Source: Actinomycetes bacterium
Lineage (GTDB): Bacteria; Actinomycetota; Acidimicrobiia; Acidimicrobiales; Palsa-688
Reading direction: 5' to 3'
DNA length: 64,000 nucleotides
Assembly (NCBI GenBank): GCA_021838445.1
Contig: JAKCDU010000007.1
Coordinates: 46,970-110,969 of the forward strand
Shown here: in pieces, positions 24,950 to 46,036 of the stretch
How the letters are laid out: the number at the start of each line of letters is the position of its first letter
Numbering within the stretch: position 1 is the stretch's first letter
Made by a program: the position numbers and the translations under genes
The notes under the pieces: generated by a model
What the model was told of the DNA's origin: nothing
The model's input: the letters and a program-made list of their open reading frames with translations, nothing else
Databases searched by the model: none

Positions 24950-25705
24950 GTGACCCCGGCCCAGCCCAAACCGAACATCGTGGCTCTGCCAGCCACGACC
25001 AAGGCACGTGGCTCATCGCCATCCCCCAAGGTCAAGGGCAGTGGCGTCCGCAGGACGGGCAGCCGCCGACTCGGCCGTCCGGTAGCCAGTGACGGAGACG
25101 AGAGACGCCGAAGGATCATCGAGGTGGCCCGCCGGGAGTTTGCTCGCTCCGGATACGTGGGTACCACCAACCGGAGGATCGCCGAACAGGCCGGTATCAC
25201 CACAGGGGCGATCTACCACTACTTCACCTCGAAGCGGGACGTCTACCTGGCCGTGTTCGAGGAGACCGATCGGATCATCCTGACCCGCTATCAGGAGGTG
25301 ACGTCAGACGCCTTGCTCAGCTTCGAGGAGATGGTCGCCCAACTTCTCGAGGTGTCCAGCCAGATGAACAGCGAGGACGAGACCCTCGCCGCCTTCCTCG
25401 CGTCGGCATCGGTTGACGCCCACCGCGACCCTGAGCTCCTACCCACCTACCTCGAGCACGACCACAAGATGATGGGGTTCTTCTCCCAGCTCATCGACGC
25501 CGGTGTGGAGGAGGGTGTGATTCACGACGAGAGCCGAGCGGACATCCTCGATGCCATCAGAGTCCTCACCCTCGGGCTCACCTGGTACTCGGTGAGGCTG
25601 GGCGATCCCGTCGCTCATCGACGGGCGACCGCGGCGACCATCCAGGCCATGCGCGGCAACCTTTTCCCTTCGCGCCCCGCTGGGAGACGTCGAGCCACTC
25701 GGTGA
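24950..25705 (+). CDS. TetR/AcrR-family transcriptional regulator
   Basis: This 251-residue DNA-binding repressor-type protein has a disordered basic N-terminal tail of about 45 residues. The TetR helix-turn-helix follows (RRIIEVARREFARSGYVGTT, IAEQAGITTGAIYHYFTSKRDVY), then a helical ligand-binding domain. The C-terminal domain resembles the TetR_C_33-like regulators of fatty-acid or steroid genes, but no ligand can be inferred. The gene leads a plus-strand group with two SDR genes and stands at the left edge of the catabolic island, making it the best local candidate to bind the recurring 16-bp palindrome. Confidence 0.9.
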   Translation: MTPAQPKPNIVALPATTKARGSSPSPKVKGSGVRRTGSRRLGRPVASDGDERRRRIIEVARREFARSGYVGTTNRRIAEQAGITTGAIYHYFTSKRDVYLAVFEETDRIILTRYQEVTSDALLSFEEMVAQLLEVSSQMNSEDETLAAFLASASVDAHRDPELLPTYLEHDHKMMGFFSQLIDAGVEEGVIHDESRADILDAIRVLTLGLTWYSVRLGDPVAHRRATAATIQAMRGNLFPSRPAGRRRATR

Positions 25706-29079: not shown

Positions 29080-30612
29080 CTACTGGACCTGCTCCCAGTA
29101 CTTCGCCCGCAGTGCCCGCTTGTTCACCTTGGCCATGGTCGTGCGGCCCACACTGTCCACGATGTCGACCGACCGCGGGCACTTGTAGTGCGTGAGGCGT
29201 TCGCGGCAGAACGCGAGGAGCTCCGATTCGAGGGGAGGATTGGCTGGGTCCCGGGGCACGACCAACGCCTTGAGCTCCTCACCCATCTCGGCATTGGGAA
29301 TCCCTATGCAGGCGACATCCGCCACTCCGGGGTGCTGGACCAGAACCTGCTCGCTCTCAGCCGGATAGATGTTGACCCCGCCCGAGACGACCATGTCGGA
29401 GAACCGGTCGGTGATGTAGACGTACCCTTCCTCGTCCATGTAGGCGATCTCGCCCAGGCTGAACACTCCGGGAGCTATGTGCGCGGCTGCCGTCTTGGCG
29501 GGGTCGTTGTGGTAGACGATCCCCCGTCCGGTTCTGTCCCGGAAGAAGAGACGACCCTCGACTCCGGGAGGCACCGGCTCGTCGTCGTCGCCCAGGATGA
29601 GAGCCTCGAACGGCGGCAGGGTCCGGCCCACCGATCCGGGATGCTCCAACCACTCCTGGGAGGTGATGGAATTGGTGGTCCCGACCTCGCTGGCGCCGTA
29701 CGCTTCGAGGAGGACCGGTCCCCACCATTCGATCATGGCCCGCTTGACCTCCACCGGGCACTTGGCCCCGGTGTGGGTGATGAGCTTCAGCGACGAGACG
29801 TCGTAGCGCCTACGCGTCTCCTCAGGTAACGCCAATAGCCTGATGAAGTGAGTGGGGACCATGACCGATGTCTCGATCCGGTGCCGCTCTATAGCGGCGA
29901 GCGTCGCCTCCGCATCGAAGCGGCCCATGATCACCGACGGGATACCGGCGGCCAACAGCCTGGCCCCGGAGAGCGGCCCGGTGTGGTACATCGGGCCCAC
30001 GACGAGATGGGTCCCGTAGGCTGCGAACCGGTTCTCCTTCAGCAACTCGACGTGCTCGGCCACGGTCTTGCCGCCAGCGAACATCGTCGGCGGTAGATCG
30101 GTACCTTTGGGCCGGCCGGTGGTTCCGCTCGTGTAGAGCAGGTGCGGGCGGGGCTCGAGATCGGAAGGTGGATCCTCCGCGTCACCCGCCATCAGCCACT
30201 GCCGCCAGTCGATCAGCCCCGGCGTCGGCGGACATCGCCAACCAACCACCTGCTCCACACCGGCCTCGGAGGCCGCCTCGAGACCCCTGTCCGCCGTTTC
30301 GGGACCGACGAAGAGGATGCGAGCCGCAGAGTCAGTAAGTATGTAGGCCAGCTCCGAGGCCGTCAGGTGAAAGTTGCAGGGCACCGTTGACGCACCTGCG
30401 ATCAAGCCCCCGATGTGGGCGATAGCGGTCTCGTTGGCGTTCTCCGCGAACACCGCCACCCGACGGTCGGGCCCGAGGTCGCAGGCGAGCAGGCCATTGG
30501 CCACCCGGTTCATCAGCTCATCGAGCTCCGCCCAGCCGATCGCCGACCGACCGTCGTCGAGAGCGACCTCGTCGGGCCTGGCCTGGGCCAGAGCGCCCGC
30601 GAAGGTGGTCAC
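29080..30612 (-). CDS. AMP-forming acyl-CoA synthetase / ligase
   Basis: This class I adenylate-forming enzyme has 510 residues. The P-loop-like motif is LLYTSGTTGRPKG. Also present are LLEAYGASEVGTTN, GEIAYMDEEGYVYITDRFSDMVVSGG (the hinge D-R) and VNIYPAESEQVL. The usual catalytic Lys region near the end is VGRTTMAKVNKRAL, with Lys present. It activates a carboxylic acid as an acyl-AMP and then the CoA thioester. It starts at a GTG four bases after the E1-beta stop, so it is translated from the same mRNA as the 2-oxoacid dehydrogenase genes. The acid is unknown. Confidence 0.92.
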   Translation of the reverse strand: MTTFAGALAQARPDEVALDDGRSAIGWAELDELMNRVANGLLACDLGPDRRVAVFAENANETAIAHIGGLIAGASTVPCNFHLTASELAYILTDSAARILFVGPETADRGLEAASEAGVEQVVGWRCPPTPGLIDWRQWLMAGDAEDPPSDLEPRPHLLYTSGTTGRPKGTDLPPTMFAGGKTVAEHVELLKENRFAAYGTHLVVGPMYHTGPLSGARLLAAGIPSVIMGRFDAEATLAAIERHRIETSVMVPTHFIRLLALPEETRRRYDVSSLKLITHTGAKCPVEVKRAMIEWWGPVLLEAYGASEVGTTNSITSQEWLEHPGSVGRTLPPFEALILGDDDEPVPPGVEGRLFFRDRTGRGIVYHNDPAKTAAAHIAPGVFSLGEIAYMDEEGYVYITDRFSDMVVSGGVNIYPAESEQVLVQHPGVADVACIGIPNAEMGEELKALVVPRDPANPPLESELLAFCRERLTHYKCPRSVDIVDSVGRTTMAKVNKRALRAKYWEQVQ

Positions 30613-30616
30613 GTGC

Positions 30617-31615
30617 CTACTTGGCCGCCCGCCGGATGCCCTCGGCGATGTCGTTGGCGTCCACGACGAACATGCTCTCGAGCTCCGCCGCGTAGGGGAT
30701 CGGCACGTTGGGACCGGCCACCCGCACGACCGGCGACTGGAGCTCGCCGAAGAAGTGCTCGTTGATCAGGCAGGAGATCTCGGCGCCCAGGCCACCACGG
30801 CGTACCGCCTGGTGAGCAATGACGGCACGCTTGGTCCGGCCCACCGATCCTAGGATCGCCTCCTCGTCCATCGGCACCAGTGATCGCAGGTCGATCACTT
30901 CGGCTGAGATCCCTTCGGCGGCCACCTGCTCTGCGGCTTGAAGGGCGAACGACACCTCCCGCCCGTAGGTGATGACGGTCACGTCAGAGCCCGCTCGGGC
31001 CACGTTGGCCTTGCCGATGGGCACGGTGTACTCACCTTCTGGCACCGGGCCAGACACCCAGTAGTTGAGAGTCGGCTCGATGGTAACGACCGGATCGTCG
31101 TCGAATATGGCGGACATGAGGAGGCCCTTGGCGTCAGCTGGGTTGGATGCCACCACGACCTTCAATCCAGGGATGTGGGTGACCCAGGACTCGAGCATTT
31201 CAGAGTGCTGCGCGCCGAACTGCATGCCGGCTCCGGCGGCGGTCCTGATGGTGATCGGGACACCGGTCTGACCACCGGACATGTAGCGCAGCTTGGCCGC
31301 GTGGTTGGAGATCTGATCCATGGCCACTGCGAAGAAGTCCATGAACATGAGCTCGGCGACCGGGCGGAAGCCACCGATGGCAGCACCGATGGCAGCACCA
31401 ACGATGGCCTGCTCGGCGATGGGCGTCGACCTCACCCTGTGCTCCCCGTGCTTGGTCGAGAGCCCCTCGGAGATGTGGAAGACCCCTCCGCCGCTCGGGT
31501 CATCGACATCCTCTCCGAGCAGCAGAACCGTCGGATCCCGGTCCATGGCCAGATCCAGAGCTTCGTGGATGGCCTGGGCGGTAGTCAGCTTCCGGTTGGT
31601 CGGGTCCCCGCTCAT
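30617..31615 (-). CDS. 2-oxoacid dehydrogenase E1 component, beta subunit
   Basis: The beta subunit of a thiamine-diphosphate E1 heterotetramer (pyruvate, acetoin or branched-chain type) has 332 residues from the ATG at 31613-31615; the track start is over-extended. Family blocks include ALDLAMDRDPTVLLLGEDV, RVRSTPIAEQAIVGAAIGAA, QISNHAAKLRYMSGGQ, AGMQFGAQHSEMLESWVTHIPGLKVV and EVIDLRSLVPMD. The start overlaps the alpha-subunit stop by four bases (ATGA), giving coupled translation and equal dosage. No full-length E2 or E3 lies in the window. Confidence 0.94.
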   Translation of the reverse strand: MSGDPTNRKLTTAQAIHEALDLAMDRDPTVLLLGEDVDDPSGGGVFHISEGLSTKHGEHRVRSTPIAEQAIVGAAIGAAIGGFRPVAELMFMDFFAVAMDQISNHAAKLRYMSGGQTGVPITIRTAAGAGMQFGAQHSEMLESWVTHIPGLKVVVASNPADAKGLLMSAIFDDDPVVTIEPTLNYWVSGPVPEGEYTVPIGKANVARAGSDVTVITYGREVSFALQAAEQVAAEGISAEVIDLRSLVPMDEEAILGSVGRTKRAVIAHQAVRRGGLGAEISCLINEHFFGELQSPVVRVAGPNVPIPYAAELESMFVVDANDIAEGIRRAAK

Positions 31616-32610
31616 GCCGGCACCACCTCTCCCTTGTAGACATCCGTGTAGAGCTCCTCCGGCCCGGGTGGCGGACTGTCCAGAGCGAACTGCATGGCGT
31701 CGTCGATGCGAGCGGCCACCGCCGCCTCCACCTCGGCCAGTTCCGCCTCGCTGAAGTGGCCACCATCGAGCAGCCACTTGCGGTAGACAACCGCCGGATC
31801 GGCATCCATCGCCGCCTTGCGCTCCTCGGGAGGCATGTAGCGCATGTTGTCACCGAAGATGTGACCCCAGAAGCGGTAGGTCATGGCCTCGACCAGAGTC
31901 GGACCGCCACCCGAGCGGGCCCGCTCAACGGCCTCGGACGCCGCCCAGTAGGTCGCAACGGGATCGTTCCCGTCGACTGTGACACCGGGCATCTCGTAGG
32001 CCACCGACCGCTGCGCCACCTGGGTCGCGCTCGTGGCCCACTCGTAGCGGGTGTGCTCGCCGTAGCGGTTGTTCTGGCAGATGAAGATGACGGGAAGCTC
32101 CCACACCGCAGCGAGGTTCAGCGCCTCGTGGAAGGCGCCGATGTTGGACGCACCATCCCCGAAGTTCACGATGGTGACCTGGTCGGTCCCCTTGAGCTGG
32201 CTGGCCCAGGCCAGCCCATTGGCTATGGGAAGACCCGAGCCGACCACTCCTGTGGTGACCATCAGGCCGGAGTCGGGATGGGTGACGTGCATGGGGCCGC
32301 CCTTTCCCTTGCATGTGCCCGTCACCCGCCCGAGGAATTCAGCGAACAGTTCCCGGAGGGGAACCCCCTTGCTGATGTGATCGTGCAGGCCCCGGTACAT
32401 CGTGACGCAGTAGTCGTCCTGACGTAGCACCGCCCCGAAGGCGGCAGAGATGCATTCCTGGCCTTTGGGTGAGTAGTAGGTCGACCGCACCCTCCCACTC
32501 GTCAGAAGGGTCCGGAACCGCTCGTCGGCCACGTTGATCGTAGTGACCAATTCGAACATGCGTTCCAGCACGTCCCGCTCCGGCACCCGCTCGCTGGCTG
32601 CTTGACTCAA
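31612..32610 (-). CDS. 2-oxoacid dehydrogenase E1 component, alpha subunit
   Basis: The thiamine-diphosphate-binding alpha subunit has 332 residues. The cofactor motif GDGASNIGAFHEALNLAA ends with the QNN seen in the family. YYSPKGQECISAAFGAVL, YRGLHDHISKGVPL and KGGPMHVTHPDSGLM are also typical of acetoin/pyruvate-type E1. It is the first gene of a four-gene minus-strand unit (E1-alpha, E1-beta, ligase, possibly nitroreductase). The clear island operator at 32718 lies about 110 bp upstream and is shared with the divergent Rieske genes. Confidence 0.94.
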   Translation of the reverse strand: MSQAASERVPERDVLERMFELVTTINVADERFRTLLTSGRVRSTYYSPKGQECISAAFGAVLRQDDYCVTMYRGLHDHISKGVPLRELFAEFLGRVTGTCKGKGGPMHVTHPDSGLMVTTGVVGSGLPIANGLAWASQLKGTDQVTIVNFGDGASNIGAFHEALNLAAVWELPVIFICQNNRYGEHTRYEWATSATQVAQRSVAYEMPGVTVDGNDPVATYWAASEAVERARSGGGPTLVEAMTYRFWGHIFGDNMRYMPPEERKAAMDADPAVVYRKWLLDGGHFSEAELAEVEAAVAARIDDAMQFALDSPPPGPEELYTDVYKGEVVPA

Positions 32611-32717: not shown

Positions 32718-32733
32718 TACTGAGCGGTCAATA
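32718..32733. promoter_or_regulatory. Island operator: TACTGAGC|GGTCAATA
   Basis: This 16-bp inverted repeat (TACTGAGC against TATTGACC read on the other strand) lies in the divergent gap between the E1-alpha gene and the small-protein/Rieske genes, followed by an AT-rich ATATATAG. It is one of at least six clear copies across the island. The rest of the gap (32611-32816) holds no gene. Confidence 0.65.
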
Positions 32734-32816: not shown

Positions 32817-33050
32817 ATGAGAATGGTTCACCCTCTTACATCCGCCGTCTACGAGAGCCAAGAGGACGGCACCGTGAGAGTCACCGAGACCGACGGCCGT
32901 CAGGGATGGTTCACCCCACAGGGCGAACACATCAGGGGTGACCTGCGCGCTGCTGATCCCCACATCATCGACTGGGTCGGCGGCCCCCAGGCCCGCAAGC
33001 AGACGGGGCGACTACGCCTGGAGTCCCGTGGTTCGGGCGAATCGAGTTGA
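32817..33050 (+). CDS. Small hypothetical protein upstream of a Rieske oxygenase
   Basis: The 77-residue frame starts at the ATG at 32817 (MRMVHPLTSAVYESQ). It alternates short strands and turns (EDGTVRVTETDGRQGWFTPQG, then a His-Ile-containing DPHIIDWVGG), suggesting a small beta-fold or ligand-binding protein. No family recognised. It ends 19 bp before the Rieske start on the same strand and is probably translated from the same mRNA. Confidence 0.5.
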   Translation: MRMVHPLTSAVYESQEDGTVRVTETDGRQGWFTPQGEHIRGDLRAADPHIIDWVGGPQARKQTGRLRLESRGSGESS

Positions 33051-33069
33051 GTTCAGGGAGGCCCATCAC

Positions 33070-34449
33070 GTGACCGTCACCGAAAGTCCGGGTTCCGCCG
33101 GGGCCCGCAGCGCTGGTCCGAACGCTCAGGAGATCATGGCCGGGGACGGGGTGGCACCACCGGCGACCCTCCGCGTCCAGAGCCAGGTCGACATGGGGAA
33201 CTCCGATATCCCGGTCGAGCGGTACATATCGAAAGGGTTCCACGACCTCGAGGTGGAGCGGATGTGGGGCCGGGTTTGGCAGGTCGCCGCCCGCGAAGAC
33301 GATCTTCCCGAGGTGGGCGACACGCTCGTGTACGACATCGCCGACATGTCGTTCGTCCTGGTCCGGGTGCCCTCCGGGGAGATCAAGGCCTTCTACAACG
33401 CCTGTCTGCATCGTGGGACCCAGTTGCGCAGCCGTAGTGGCTTCACGCCCGAGCTGCGCTGCCCGTTCCACGGCTGGACGTGGAATCTCGACGGTTCGAT
33501 CAAGACGATCCCCTGCGAATGGGACTTCGCTCACCTGGACCGGGCCGAGCTCAGCCTGCCCGAGGCCAAGGTCGGCTCCTGGAGCGGATGGGTGTTCATC
33601 AATCCCGATGAGAGTGCCGGCTCGCTCGAGGATTATCTGGGCACCTTCCCCGAGCACTTCATCTGGGACCTGAGCCAGCGCTACAAGAGCCTCCACGTGT
33701 CCAAGCTCATAAGGGTGAATTGGAAGGCGTGCCTGGAGGCCTTCATGGAGTCCTACCACGTCATAGCCACGCACCCCCAGATCCTCACCTACCTGGGTGA
33801 CGCCAACACCCAGTACGACGTCTTCCCCGGCACCGGGCCGGGTCGACCCGGGTGGAGCCGGATGAACACACTGAGCGGGGTCTCGAGCCCTCATCTGGGC
33901 CGTCCCCTACCCCCCCAAGAAGTCCTTGCCGCCCAGCTCGCCTCCTACGGCGTGGAAGCCCCGCCTGTTCCAGAGGGCGAGACAGCCCGACGGGTGCTGG
34001 CCGAGACGACCCGGGCCGTCTTCGACCCGAAGCCTCGCAGCGTGCCCGGTGAGAAGTTGTCGGACTCCGAGGCGATCGACAACATCCTCTACTACATCTT
34101 CCCCAACTTTCAGCCCTGGGGCGGGATGAGCCCGATCAACTACCGGTTCCGACCAAACGGGAACGACCCTGACAGCTGCATCATGGACGTCATGCTCCTG
34201 AGCGATTACCAGGGAAGCGAGAAGCCCCCGTCGGCCAAGCCGATCCACCTGGGCTTCGATGACGACTGGACAGAGGTCGAGGAACTCGGCGCTCTGGCCA
34301 TGGTGTTCAACCAGGACGTCGGCAACCTACCCAGGGTGCAGCGGGGCCTGCGCGCAACTAAGAAGAAGGGCGTCAGCCTCGGGACCTATCAGGAGTCCCG
34401 CATCCGACAGATCCACCACGAACTCGACTACTGGATCAACCGGCCCTGA
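33070..34449 (+). CDS. Rieske non-haem iron oxygenase, alpha subunit
   Basis: This aromatic-ring-hydroxylating-dioxygenase-type oxygenase has 459 residues from the GTG at 33070, with an AGGGAGG ribosome site eight bases upstream. The Rieske 2Fe-2S ligands are C112-x-H114 and C131-x2-H134 (CLHRG, CPFHGW). The mononuclear iron site is in FMESYHVIATHP (H-x4-H). It needs an electron donor; the ferredoxin at 46070 is a candidate. Expected chemistry is ring dihydroxylation, monohydroxylation or demethylation. The LLM gene follows 21 bp downstream. No small beta subunit is adjacent. Confidence 0.92.
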   Translation: MTVTESPGSAGARSAGPNAQEIMAGDGVAPPATLRVQSQVDMGNSDIPVERYISKGFHDLEVERMWGRVWQVAAREDDLPEVGDTLVYDIADMSFVLVRVPSGEIKAFYNACLHRGTQLRSRSGFTPELRCPFHGWTWNLDGSIKTIPCEWDFAHLDRAELSLPEAKVGSWSGWVFINPDESAGSLEDYLGTFPEHFIWDLSQRYKSLHVSKLIRVNWKACLEAFMESYHVIATHPQILTYLGDANTQYDVFPGTGPGRPGWSRMNTLSGVSSPHLGRPLPPQEVLAAQLASYGVEAPPVPEGETARRVLAETTRAVFDPKPRSVPGEKLSDSEAIDNILYYIFPNFQPWGGMSPINYRFRPNGNDPDSCIMDVMLLSDYQGSEKPPSAKPIHLGFDDDWTEVEELGALAMVFNQDVGNLPRVQRGLRATKKKGVSLGTYQESRIRQIHHELDYWINRP

Positions 34450-36869: not shown

Positions 36870-36885
36870 TACTGCCCGGTTAATA
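36870..36885. promoter_or_regulatory. Island operator: TACTGCCC|GGTTAATA
   Basis: The inverted repeat has arms TACTGCCC and TATTAACC. It lies in the 98-bp divergent gap between the SnoaL-ABM fusion and the NIPSNAP gene and is followed by AT-rich TATTT. Confidence 0.65.
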
Positions 36886-36921: not shown

Positions 36922-37230
36922 ATGGGATACATGCTGGCGCGACTGCAGATCAAGCCTGGCCAGATTCCGCAGGCCATCGAGATCATGAAGCACATCACCG
37001 TTGGTATGGAGAAGCAGGGCTGGAAGCTCATCGGCGGCTACCAGACGGTGATCGGCCGGTTCAACGAGATTTGGGATCTCTGGGACGTGGGCGGGGATGC
37101 CGGAGCCATCGGCACCGCCTTGGCCAACGCCAGGAATGACCCCGACTTCGCCCAATGGGCGGCCAAGCTGCCCGGCGTGGTCGAATCGGAGGAGACCCGC
37201 TACATGGAGAAGCTGGACTACTCCCTCTGA
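36922..37230 (+). CDS. NIPSNAP-family small protein
   Basis: The 102-residue protein starts at the ATG at 36922 (MGYMLARLQIKPGQ); the track start is 11 codons upstream. It has the ferredoxin-like NIPSNAP pattern: YMLARLQIKPGQIPQAIEIMKH, W-K-L-I-G-G-Y-Q-T-V-I-G-R-F-N-E, IWDLWDVGG and a final LDYSL. Bacterial members are of unknown function and often accompany catabolic oxygenase genes. A histidine phosphatase gene follows on the same strand. Confidence 0.78.
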   Translation: MGYMLARLQIKPGQIPQAIEIMKHITVGMEKQGWKLIGGYQTVIGRFNEIWDLWDVGGDAGAIGTALANARNDPDFAQWAAKLPGVVESEETRYMEKLDYSL

Positions 37231-37297
37231 GCACCGGAGGCGGCCGCGGGTCTCGTACCGGCCACCCCGTGCTGGTTGCTGGAGCGTCTGGAGCGGG

Positions 37298-37945
37298 ATG
37301 CTCGCCGTAGCCGATGAGATATTGTGCCGCCCTGTGGAGTTGATCTTGGTCAGGCACGCCGAGCCGGTCCGAGTCGTTGACTCCGACGGGCCGGCCGATC
37401 CTCCGCTCAGCCACCGAGGGGAGCACCAAGCCGCCCTTCTGGGGGACTACATAGCTGGTCAGGGTCTGACCGCCATCTACTCCTCGCCGATGCGCCGCGC
37501 CCTGGCCACCGCTGCTGCGGTGTCACGCCGCGCCGGGAGGCAGGTCACGGTGAACGAGGGACTGGCCGAGTTCGACCGGTTGGCCACGAGCTACGTCACC
37601 CTCGAAGAGATGCGCGAAACCCGCGACGAGAGGTTCCTGGCGATGCTCCGGGATGACTTCAGCCACTACGGGGTGGACATGGAACAGTTCCGGCGGAACG
37701 TCGTAGCCACGGTCGAGGCGATCATCTCGTCGCACCCCGGCGAACGCGTTGCGGCCGTCTGCCACGGCGGCGTGATCAACGCCTATATCGGGCACATCCT
37801 GGACATCTCCAAGAACTCGTTCTTCGTACCGGACTACACGAGTGTCAACCGGGTGGCCGCCAACCGTTCGGGCCGCAGGTCGTTGCTGCGGCTCAACGAG
37901 GTGACCCACCTGCACGGTCACGACCTGCTCGTGTCCACCGTCTGA
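37298..37945 (+). CDS. Histidine phosphatase (phosphoglycerate mutase-like) family protein
   Basis: The protein has about 215 residues. The catalytic phospho-histidine motif LVRHAEP appears at the N-terminus, followed by LSHRGEHQAALLGDYI, IYSSPMRRALATAA and the late catalytic AAVCHGGVINAYIGHIL. Two starts are possible: the ATG at 37298 with GGAG upstream, or the GTG at 37334 directly before the LILVRHAE strand. The ORF-track start at 37097 overlaps the NIPSNAP gene and is rejected. Probable role: phosphatase acting on a small molecule, here perhaps removing phosphate from an intermediate. This is inference only. Confidence 0.85.
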   Translation: MLAVADEILCRPVELILVRHAEPVRVVDSDGPADPPLSHRGEHQAALLGDYIAGQGLTAIYSSPMRRALATAAAVSRRAGRQVTVNEGLAEFDRLATSYVTLEEMRETRDERFLAMLRDDFSHYGVDMEQFRRNVVATVEAIISSHPGERVAAVCHGGVINAYIGHILDISKNSFFVPDYTSVNRVAANRSGRRSLLRLNEVTHLHGHDLLVSTV

Positions 37946-38014: not shown

Positions 38015-38030
38015 AATTGATCGATTAGTA
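38015..38030. promoter_or_regulatory. Island operator: AATTGATC|GATTAGTA
   Basis: The inverted repeat has arms AATTGATC and TACTAATC. It ends eight bases before the GTG of the lipoyl-domain gene, so it overlaps the core promoter (TAGTAT would be the -10) and a leaderless transcript is likely. A bound repressor would block this promoter directly. Confidence 0.6.
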
Positions 38031-38037
38031 TGTAGCC

Positions 38038-38268
38038 GTGTCGACGACGCTATTCATCCCCCGCTTGGCCGTATCCATGACCGAAGGCACCATTACCGAG
38101 TGGCTGGTGGAAGACGGCGCCACCGTGGCCGCCGGACAGCCGATCTACCGCATCGAGACCGACAAGACCGACGCGGAGATCGAGGCGCCCGCCAGCGGTG
38201 TCATCCACATCGAGGCTGATCCGGGCGAGCTGCTTGAAGTTGGCACCCCGATCGGTGAGATCGAATAG
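38038..38268 (+). CDS. Freestanding lipoyl-domain protein
   Basis: The 76-residue protein is a single biotinyl/lipoyl-carrier domain. The modification site is Lys43 in the sequence ETDKTDAE; an E-T-D-K context is typical of lipoylated E2 domains. SMTEGTITEWLVEDGATV precedes it and APASGVIHI follows. There is no catalytic E2 domain and no linker. It probably serves as the acyl carrier for the E1-alpha/beta pair encoded at 30617-32610, under the same operator type. It overlaps the convergent P450 gene by 68 bp. Confidence 0.88.
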   Translation: MSTTLFIPRLAVSMTEGTITEWLVEDGATVAAGQPIYRIETDKTDAEIEAPASGVIHIEADPGELLEVGTPIGEIE

Positions 38269-39574: not shown

Positions 39575-39700
39575 GAGGCCCTTTCTGGAAGAACGACCAT
39601 CGACCGGCCCCTTCTACTATCCGCGGCGGCTGCCCCGGTGGCCAGTGCCGCCCGCGTTCGCCGTGCCATCTCCACCCGCCCCGGTCCGGACCGCAGTCAG

Positions 39701-39716
39701 TATTGACCGGTTAGTA
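39701..39716. promoter_or_regulatory. Island operator: TATTGACC|GGTTAGTA (best consensus copy)
   Basis: The inverted repeat has arms TATTGACC and TACTAACC. It is the copy closest to the consensus and lies in the divergent gap between the P450 gene and the gene at 39783. The gap 39575-39782 shows no other feature. Confidence 0.68.
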
Positions 39717-39782
39717 TGCCATACCCGAGCGAGCCGATGGGCACCTGAACACCGTCGGGGCGCTCTGAACAGGAGGCCCCCA

Positions 39783-40865
39783 GTGCTGCTCGACATGGAT
39801 GAGTTTCCCTACCACCAGATCACTCAGACCTTCGCAGGAGTGGGCGGCAGTGATCCGCAGTGGAATGACGGGCACTACATCTGCGCCTGCGACGAAGCTG
39901 GAAAGGTCGCCCTGGCTTCCAACGTCCGCCTCTACCAGAACAACGACGTGCTCGACGGCTTCGTGTGCATCCGCCATCAGGGCCGTCAGCACAACATCCG
40001 GCTGTCACGACGTCTGCGACCGGACATGGACCACCTGGGTGTGGGCCCGCTGCACATGGAGGTGGTCGAGCCGATGAAGACCGTGCGGATGGTGCTGGAA
40101 CCCAACGAGTACGGCATGAGCCTCGATTTGACCTGTCACACCGTGGGGGTTCCCTACATGGGGCCCATCGAGGTCAACCGGGTCGACGGCCGCCTGCTCG
40201 GCGAGCGAGCCACCTACGAGCTGGCTGGACGCTGCGAGGGCTGGGTGGAGGTTGACGGCGACCGCACAACGCTGGACACCGAGTCCTCGGCCTTCTTCCG
40301 GAACCATTCGTGGGGCTACCAGGGAGGTCGGGGAGGACCCCGCTACGGAGCCCCGACCGGGTCGAAGCGCCACCCTGGCGTCCGGCAATGGGTGCTGTTC
40401 AACATGCCCGACCACAGTGGTTTCTATTTCGAGGACCCGAGCGGTAGATCCGCGGCCGGCCGGGGCGCCATCCTCCAGAGCGACCGGTCGGTACCGGTCA
40501 CGGCCGTACGCCATGATCTCGAGTTCTACCCGGGAGGCGGACGGGTACGGCGAGGATCGTTCGAGATCGACGACGCCGACGGCGCGACGCGCACCTACAC
40601 CTTCGAGGATCTCGGCTGGGTCTACTGCCAGGGTGGCGGCTATTTCGGCGGGTTCAACGATGGTCTCGGCCAGGGCGTCTTCCGGGGCGAGCTCCACACC
40701 GAAGGGGAGGTGTGGGACGTGAGTCATCCCACCCTGATCGAGGATGCGACCGGTCGGCAGTTCGAATTCGATCATGCCTGGGCCGAGAGCTTCGTCAAAC
40801 TGAGCGGTCCAGAGGGCCAGACCGGCCTGGCCCACTTCGAGTGCGTCGTAGTGGCTGACCGCTGA
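39783..40865 (+). CDS. Hypothetical protein, lipocalin-like AttH/CrtC- or DUF7064-type
   Basis: The protein has 360 residues from the GTG at 39783, with AGGAGG eight bases upstream. It is strand-rich with many aromatic and Gly residues: FAGVGGSDPQWNDGHYICAC, GFVCIRHQGRQHNIRLSRRLRPD, FRNHSWGYQGGRGG, FEDLGWVYCQGGGYFGGF. The pattern resembles two-domain beta-barrel proteins of the AttH/carotenoid-hydratase type and the DUF7064-like proteins seen near steroid genes. The assignment is tentative and no catalytic residues are certain. It is divergent from the P450. Confidence 0.55.
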   Translation: MLLDMDEFPYHQITQTFAGVGGSDPQWNDGHYICACDEAGKVALASNVRLYQNNDVLDGFVCIRHQGRQHNIRLSRRLRPDMDHLGVGPLHMEVVEPMKTVRMVLEPNEYGMSLDLTCHTVGVPYMGPIEVNRVDGRLLGERATYELAGRCEGWVEVDGDRTTLDTESSAFFRNHSWGYQGGRGGPRYGAPTGSKRHPGVRQWVLFNMPDHSGFYFEDPSGRSAAGRGAILQSDRSVPVTAVRHDLEFYPGGGRVRRGSFEIDDADGATRTYTFEDLGWVYCQGGGYFGGFNDGLGQGVFRGELHTEGEVWDVSHPTLIEDATGRQFEFDHAWAESFVKLSGPEGQTGLAHFECVVVADR

Positions 40866-46020: not shown

Positions 46021-46036
46021 AACTGATCGGTCGATA
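46021..46036. promoter_or_regulatory. Island operator: AACTGATC|GGTCGATA
   Basis: The inverted repeat has arms AACTGATC and TATCGACC. It lies 60 bp upstream of the DUF35 gene, which leads the six-gene thiolase/P450 unit, and follows the end of the ferredoxin gene. Confidence 0.62.

Follow-up and report, generated by a model that had tools for sequence, protein, structure and literature searches.

Swinging-arm tethering and substrate channelling are the textbook rationale for the giant enzyme complexes of the pyruvate dehydrogenase (PDH) type. In the acetoin and pyruvate dehydrogenase complexes, the lipoyl domain is an N-terminal part of E2. The catabolic island described here encodes E1 alpha and beta subunits homologous to those of these complexes (PF00676, PF02779/02780) and a lipoyl domain homologous to that of their E2, but here the domain is a separate protein (Lip) and the operon has no E2 gene; relatives of the island encode the E2 core separately as well, without an E3-binding domain, and the genomic context is catabolic, P450, Rieske, and CoA enzymes being encoded alongside. 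Glycine cleavage (proteins P, H, T, and L) resembles Lip in its logic, a small free lipoyl carrier being visited by separate enzymes, but there is no homology beyond the lipoyl fold, and the partner is a PLP decarboxylase there and a TPP-dependent E1 here. In actinobacterial OdhA/KGD, the lipoyl domain is supplied in trans by the PDH E2 (PMC10415282, PMC7568260); lipoyl arm and catalytic domain lie on different polypeptides, as in the Lip system, but that arm belongs to the E2 of another complex, whereas Lip is a free single-domain arm. LbpA of sulfur oxidation is a single-lipoyl-domain protein with a role outside 2-oxoacid chemistry (PMC6067878) and, like Lip, sits within a pathway-specific cluster; it differs in being GcvH-like, in its Hdr partners, and in its sulfur chemistry. 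The Pelobacter "lipoyl carrier protein" LarG was considered as a system of the same type and set aside, as it is described as glycine-cleavage-like. We found no description of a stand-alone lipoyl domain system of the Lip-E1 type in the literature searched.

The stand-alone lipoyl protein

The Lip gene occupies positions 38038 to 38268 (forward strand) of the window, by which we mean the whole 64,000-nucleotide stretch of DNA analysed, and encodes 76 amino acids from a GTG start, with a predicted lipoyl attachment site at Lys43. The protein matches PF00364 (Biotin_lipoyl) end to end over residues 6 to 75 (62.5 bits, cut-off 22.1), and a Pfam search of all 76 residues matched no other domain: both the E3-binding (PSBD) domain PF02817 and the acyltransferase core PF00198 are absent, the latter having no match anywhere within the window. 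The score against the glycine-cleavage family PF01597 (GCV_H) falls below its cut-off (15.4 bits versus 22.2, E = 0.018). The best NCBIfam alignment is to the lipoyl part of the acetoin-dehydrogenase E2 PRK14875 (72.6 bits), and the PDB matches in a sequence search are E2 lipoyl domains. Lys43 is the lysine of an ETDKT motif at the hairpin position, which is of the lipoyl and not the biotinyl (MKM) type, and is invariant across eight aligned relatives. An AlphaFold (AF2) model built from an input alignment of eight rows has a mean pLDDT of 81.7 (43.9 to 68.9 for the other four models), and Foldseek aligned it with the solved lipoyl domains 2dnc and 3crk at a TM score of about 0.85; biotinyl domains were also matched, as expected from the common fold. 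In the Lip tree, six biotinyl domains (BCCP) form a separate clade (support 100/99). With a full domain above cut-off, the ETDKT lysine, and a placement apart from BCCP, Lip belongs to the lipoyl family as judged by sequence.

Lip is physically separate from any E2. In the near relative L031, which is collinear with the window and has an E1 alpha 97% identical, Lip differs at 11 of 231 nucleotides, all 11 of them synonymous, whereas the DNA just 5′ of the Lip operator shows visible differences; the silent substitutions clearly indicate a real gene under purifying selection. The MAG record of L031 is labelled Acidobacteriota, a phylum label that is probably wrong. The original prediction from the DNA, of an isolated E2-type lipoyl domain at these positions, is thereby borne out (PF00364 is the sole domain of a 76-residue protein), as is its expectation that a phylogeny would not group Lip with biotin carriers. 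Its view that such an isolated gene is unusual was too strong: Lip-type proteins are not unique, recur across phyla, and carry the RefSeq annotation "lipoyl domain-containing protein."

E1 genes and the catabolic island

E1 alpha (31612 to 32610, reverse strand) matches PF00676 with 255 bits and retains an intact GDG...NN TPP motif; its 277 bits against TIGR03182 lie below the equivalog cut-off. E1 beta (30617 to 31615, reverse strand) carries PF02779 and PF02780, matches NF006667 with 341 bits, is without a lipoyl domain, and starts at MSGDPTNRK, the listed open reading frame (ORF) opening further upstream at 31777. Together, the two genes (30617 to 32610) are predicted to encode an intact TPP-dependent decarboxylase. 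Directly 3′ of E1 beta is an acyl-CoA ligase gene (29080 to 30612, reverse strand; NCBIfam acyl-CoA synthetase matches), with 60 to 64% identical genes near E1-Lip at loci L111 and L112, and divergent from the E1 operon is the gene for a Rieske oxygenase alpha subunit (32938 to 34449, forward strand; PF00355, PF00848), with homologues (46 to 48%) at L111, L112, and L113. A histidine phosphatase (37097 to 37945, forward strand; PF00300, 126 bits) has homologues 59 to 63% identical in L032 and L033, where its position relative to Lip is the same. The island contains P450s, the Rieske oxygenase, the acyl-CoA ligase, an acyl-CoA dehydrogenase, a thiolase with a ChsH2-like OB-fold protein, SDRs, SnoaL-like proteins, and luciferase-like monooxygenases, and relatives carry similar sets. 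By annotation, this gene set resembles those for catabolism of steroid- or terpenoid-like compounds, and the E1 substrate could be a 2-oxo acid, or else an acyloin or diketone. A paper on tomatine degradation in Sphingobium was discarded as a source of function, as it mentions no acetoin, pyruvate, or lipoyl.

The island also includes a protein with a PEP-utilisers mobile domain (PF00391; 59058 to 60893, reverse strand), and in Rhodococcus ZPP (L157) the neighbourhood of the E1 genes encodes a histidine phosphatase as well as a protein of similar annotation (pyruvate, phosphate dikinase). Their recurrence is a hint that pathways of this kind include a phosphorylation step.

A shared operator and a leaderless start

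The near-palindrome TAYTRAYCGRTYARTA occurs at five sites in the window with at most two mismatches, compared to 0.03 expected from a Markov simulation, which serves as a guide and not as a blind test because the consensus was built from some of the same sites. When one mismatch at most is allowed, the narrower form TAYTRACCGGTYARTA has only three matches across the 4-Mb genome, none of them outside the window. One copy, AATTGATCGATTAGTA (38015 to 38030, one mismatch), precedes Lip and is kept in place in L031 and L032; another (32718 to 32733, one mismatch) separates the E1 operon from the Rieske gene that diverges from it, so that Lip and the E1 alpha/beta operon are under the same operator. 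The remaining copies are before a NIPSNAP-like ORF (36870 to 36885, one mismatch; kept in L031 and L032), between a P450 gene and the ORF at 39645 to 40865 (39701 to 39716, no mismatches; kept in L031), and before the genes for the ChsH2-like OB-fold protein and thiolase (46021 to 46036, two mismatches; kept in L031). In L032, whose Lip is 80% identical, the operator is present before both Lip and the NIPSNAP-like gene, and it precedes E1 alpha in two further genomes (G247 and G249; loci L155 and L156). At the level of sequence, this conservation is evidence independent of the simulation. No site was recognisable in L033, nor was one seen at L111 and L112, which are actinobacterial loci with a more divergent E1 alpha. 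The ORF under the strongest copy (39645 to 40865, forward strand, about 400 amino acids) has no Pfam match, and its likely start is near MDEFPYHQ, downstream of the ORF start.

A −10-like TAGTAT (38026 to 38031, forward strand) overlaps the operator and ends 6 nucleotides before the GTG of Lip; an equivalent TAGTAT in L032 and a TACTAT in L033 are 6 to 7 nucleotides ahead of GTG. A −10 element shortly before GTG is how leaderless genes of actinobacteria commonly begin, and we infer such a start for Lip; a generic sigma-70 scan at this position returned no promoter match. Of the dedicated promoter and operator originally predicted for Lip, the operator is well supported by its enrichment and conservation, and the promoter is a probable reading of TAGTAT.

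The same operator appears in a second catabolic region of this genome (contig C65, about 20 to 41 kb; loci L149 and L150), which contains Rieske-type, PPOX, acyl-CoA dehydrogenase, and TetR genes. A perfect copy (L150:8972) separates the TetR gene from an acyl-CoA dehydrogenase gene that diverges from it. The C65 TetR, which has this site upstream of its own gene and is conserved in the near-identical G250 alone, would be the best candidate regulator, better than the TetR of the window (24950 to 25705), which has no operator within reach.

Pairing of Lip and E1 across bacteria

In the window, Lip is 5.4 kb from E1 and on the opposite strand; elsewhere the two are usually adjacent. The E1 alpha tree contains one clade of 17 rows (support 100/99), spanning Acidimicrobiia, Nocardia, Streptomyces, Azospirillum, Paraburkholderia, Diaphorobacter, and Sphingobium, in which 16 of 17 have a stand-alone Lip; the exception is Rhodococcus ZPP, with no Lip within 8 kb. 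The order E1 alpha-E1 beta-Lip is consecutive in Nocardia miyunensis, N. jiangxiensis, the Acidimicrobiaceae MAG L035, a Streptomyces plasmid, Diaphorobacter, Azospirillum B510, and two Paraburkholderia, and E1 genes and Lip are close neighbours at L111 to L113. Among tabulated loci with both genes, an E1 alpha of at least 51% identity was always paired with a stand-alone Lip, and an E1 alpha of at most 42% mostly with an E2-fused lipoyl domain. In a search of 72,556 plasmid records, the top 17 for E1 alpha (at least 50.6%; next, 45.7%) were also the top 17 for Lip (at least 50.7%; next tier, at most 44.9%), 10 of these 17 being related Sphingobium isolates and therefore representing fewer independent cases. 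A tree of Lip alone was rejected as a test in favour of the E1 alpha tree, the stand-alone carriers not forming one clade in its 77 columns. The nearest relatives, L032 and L033, have no E1 on the Lip locus examined; the L032 genome has one about 20 kb away, on a contig of equal length, and none was seen in the L033 MAG.

Stand-alone lipoyl proteins also occur beside E1 genes of other clades (L047, L065, L114 to L120, and L132), in Microbacterium, Clostridia, Agrobacterium, and other genomes of the window's class, and detachment of the lipoyl domain therefore seems to have happened not once but several times. On the evidence of gene content and phylogeny, Lip and E1 together make up a recurring system of the 2-oxoacid-dehydrogenase type across phyla.

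E2 cores and the acyl acceptor

In Diaphorobacter and the two Paraburkholderia, the gene after Lip encodes a stand-alone E2 core of 249 to 275 amino acids; in Azospirillum B510, such a core follows a second Lip, and in Sphingobium TomTYG64 (where it is annotated "hypothetical protein") and in L036 one is encoded nearby. These cores match PF00198 only, without lipoyl or E3-binding domains (Pfam), and in most proteobacterial members examined they are ordinary, with DHR motifs. Most proteobacterial loci have such a core beside or near Lip. Their E2 is thus divided among separate proteins, and the reaction looks like that of a conventional E1-E2 pair whose E2 has come apart.

A profile search found no dedicated E2 core or E3 in the window. 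The window genome as a whole has no stand-alone E2 core, its PF00198 matches lying in two full-length E2s, a fused KGD-type protein, and a decayed stub, and at 96% completeness of the MAG an E2-core gene could be missed; no stand-alone core was found either in G161 and G202, which also have E1-Lip. The stub (contig C38, 5794 to 6042, reverse strand) is an E2-core C terminus between luciferase-like and SDR genes that reads FDHLVCQG in place of DHRxxDG. This E2-like fragment (C38:5914) was rejected as a dedicated core because it is isolated and its active-site motif is altered. Contig C17 carries together a resident lipoyl-PSBD-core E2 (with PF02817) and an E3 (5.2 to 8.1 kb), adjoined by a LipB-LipA fusion in one 584-residue frame (L125:3.5 to 5.3 kb), the LipA part of which was recognised by a family model and the LipB part by eye. 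Given that the genome has no dedicated core, action of the resident E2 and E3 in trans is the simplest model, and these enzymes most likely finish the reaction in the window organism. This is the weakest part of the model, and the identity of the acceptor E2 is a tentative assignment, with the odds somewhat against it.

Discussion

We propose that Lip, lipoylated and free to diffuse, carries acyl groups for the E1 alpha/beta decarboxylase encoded in its own catabolic island, a reading to which we give a probability of roughly 70%. It builds on the intact domain, the selection acting on it, the operator held in common with E1, the association with a single E1 clade, and the divided E2 of relatives, to which the model adds lipoylation, contact between E1 and Lip, an acceptor E2, and a substrate. 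Lip would in effect be an E2 lipoyl domain encoded as its own protein and would be lipoylated at Lys43 by the LipB-LipA fusion encoded elsewhere in the genome. The CoA-linked, P450- and Rieske-dependent pathway of the island would supply E1 with a 2-oxo acid, or an acyloin or diketone, which E1 would decarboxylate or cleave, loading the acyl group reductively onto Lip. From there, an E2 acyltransferase core would pass the group to CoA, and reoxidation of Lip would be the task of E3. For most proteobacterial relatives, CoA transfer would fall to the dedicated, equally detached E2 core, and in the window organism the C17 lipoyl-E2 and E3 would act in trans. Tentatively, and at slightly worse than even odds, the whole could be a fully dissociated 2-oxoacid/acyloin dehydrogenase in which E1, carrier, E2 core, and E3 are all soluble, untethered proteins without a domain for binding one another. 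Acyl transfer would then depend on a freely diffusing carrier, as it does in glycine cleavage, and would involve large cyclic intermediates of catabolism; in actinobacteria, the carrier would couple the specialised E1 to the E2 and E3 of central metabolism.

The interpretation offered in the original prediction is thus partly supported. Comparative evidence supports well the idea that the system is modular and its acyl acceptor detached: Lip is of the lipoyl type, is separate from E2, shares the E1 operator, and in relatives is repeatedly found beside one E1 clade. The likeness drawn to the glycine-cleavage H-protein survives as logic and fails as homology, GCV_H remaining below its cut-off. 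The proposed handover to a separate acceptor in place of a fixed PDH complex is right about the detachment, but an E2 core is still present in most proteobacterial relatives examined.

In actinobacteria, E1 could acylate Lip with no E2-core transfer following, the acyl group being taken by a hydrolase, thiolase, or other enzyme, or the reaction being an aldehyde-level oxidation only. This would fit the window genome, G161, and G202, which have no dedicated E2 core, and the closest NCBIfam model of Lip, PRK14875, in which a lipoyl domain is paired with an alpha/beta-hydrolase-type domain; in Streptomyces, Lip is followed by a patatin-like hydrolase, and another kind of stand-alone lipoyl protein, in Agrobacterium, has an alpha/beta hydrolase after it. 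We nevertheless consider this route unlikely: no hydrolase is kept beside Lip across the clade, most proteobacterial members examined have ordinary DHR-motif E2 cores, and a resident E2 and E3 are available. Patatin and SDR neighbours were likewise dropped as candidates for a conserved acyl acceptor, not being kept across loci.

That Lip works independently of E1, carrying redox equivalents or sulfur as LbpA does in Hdr-like sulfur oxidation, is far less probable. LbpA establishes that single-lipoyl-domain proteins can have a role outside 2-oxoacid metabolism (PMC6067878), but it is GcvH-like and Lip is not, no hdr-like gene was seen among the annotated neighbours, and Lip both co-occurs with E1 and shares its operator. 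A BCCP-like biotin carrier has the same fold, and biotinyl domains appear in the Foldseek list, but the ETDKT motif in place of (A/V)MKM, the separate biotinyl clade, and the lack of any recognised acyl-CoA carboxylase gene beside Lip make this assignment very improbable. The decayed E2-core stub on C38 of the same genome might suggest that Lip is itself a decaying remnant of a full-length E2, a scenario already contradicted by its complete domain, its conserved operator, the absence of amino acid changes in 11 substitutions, and its homologues across phyla.

Lip-E1, with a free carrier in place of an E2-borne lipoyl domain, appears to be a variant of 2-oxoacid dehydrogenase that recurs across phyla and is new to the literature searched. 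It points to a dismantled PDH-type machine at work in the catabolism of unusual compounds. As a natural system in which the lipoyl arm, and in most proteobacterial relatives examined also the acyltransferase, has been cut loose, it would permit a direct test of the need for tethering. It may also provide a functional lead for the "lipoyl domain-containing protein" genes of catabolic islands, together with their E1 and operator.
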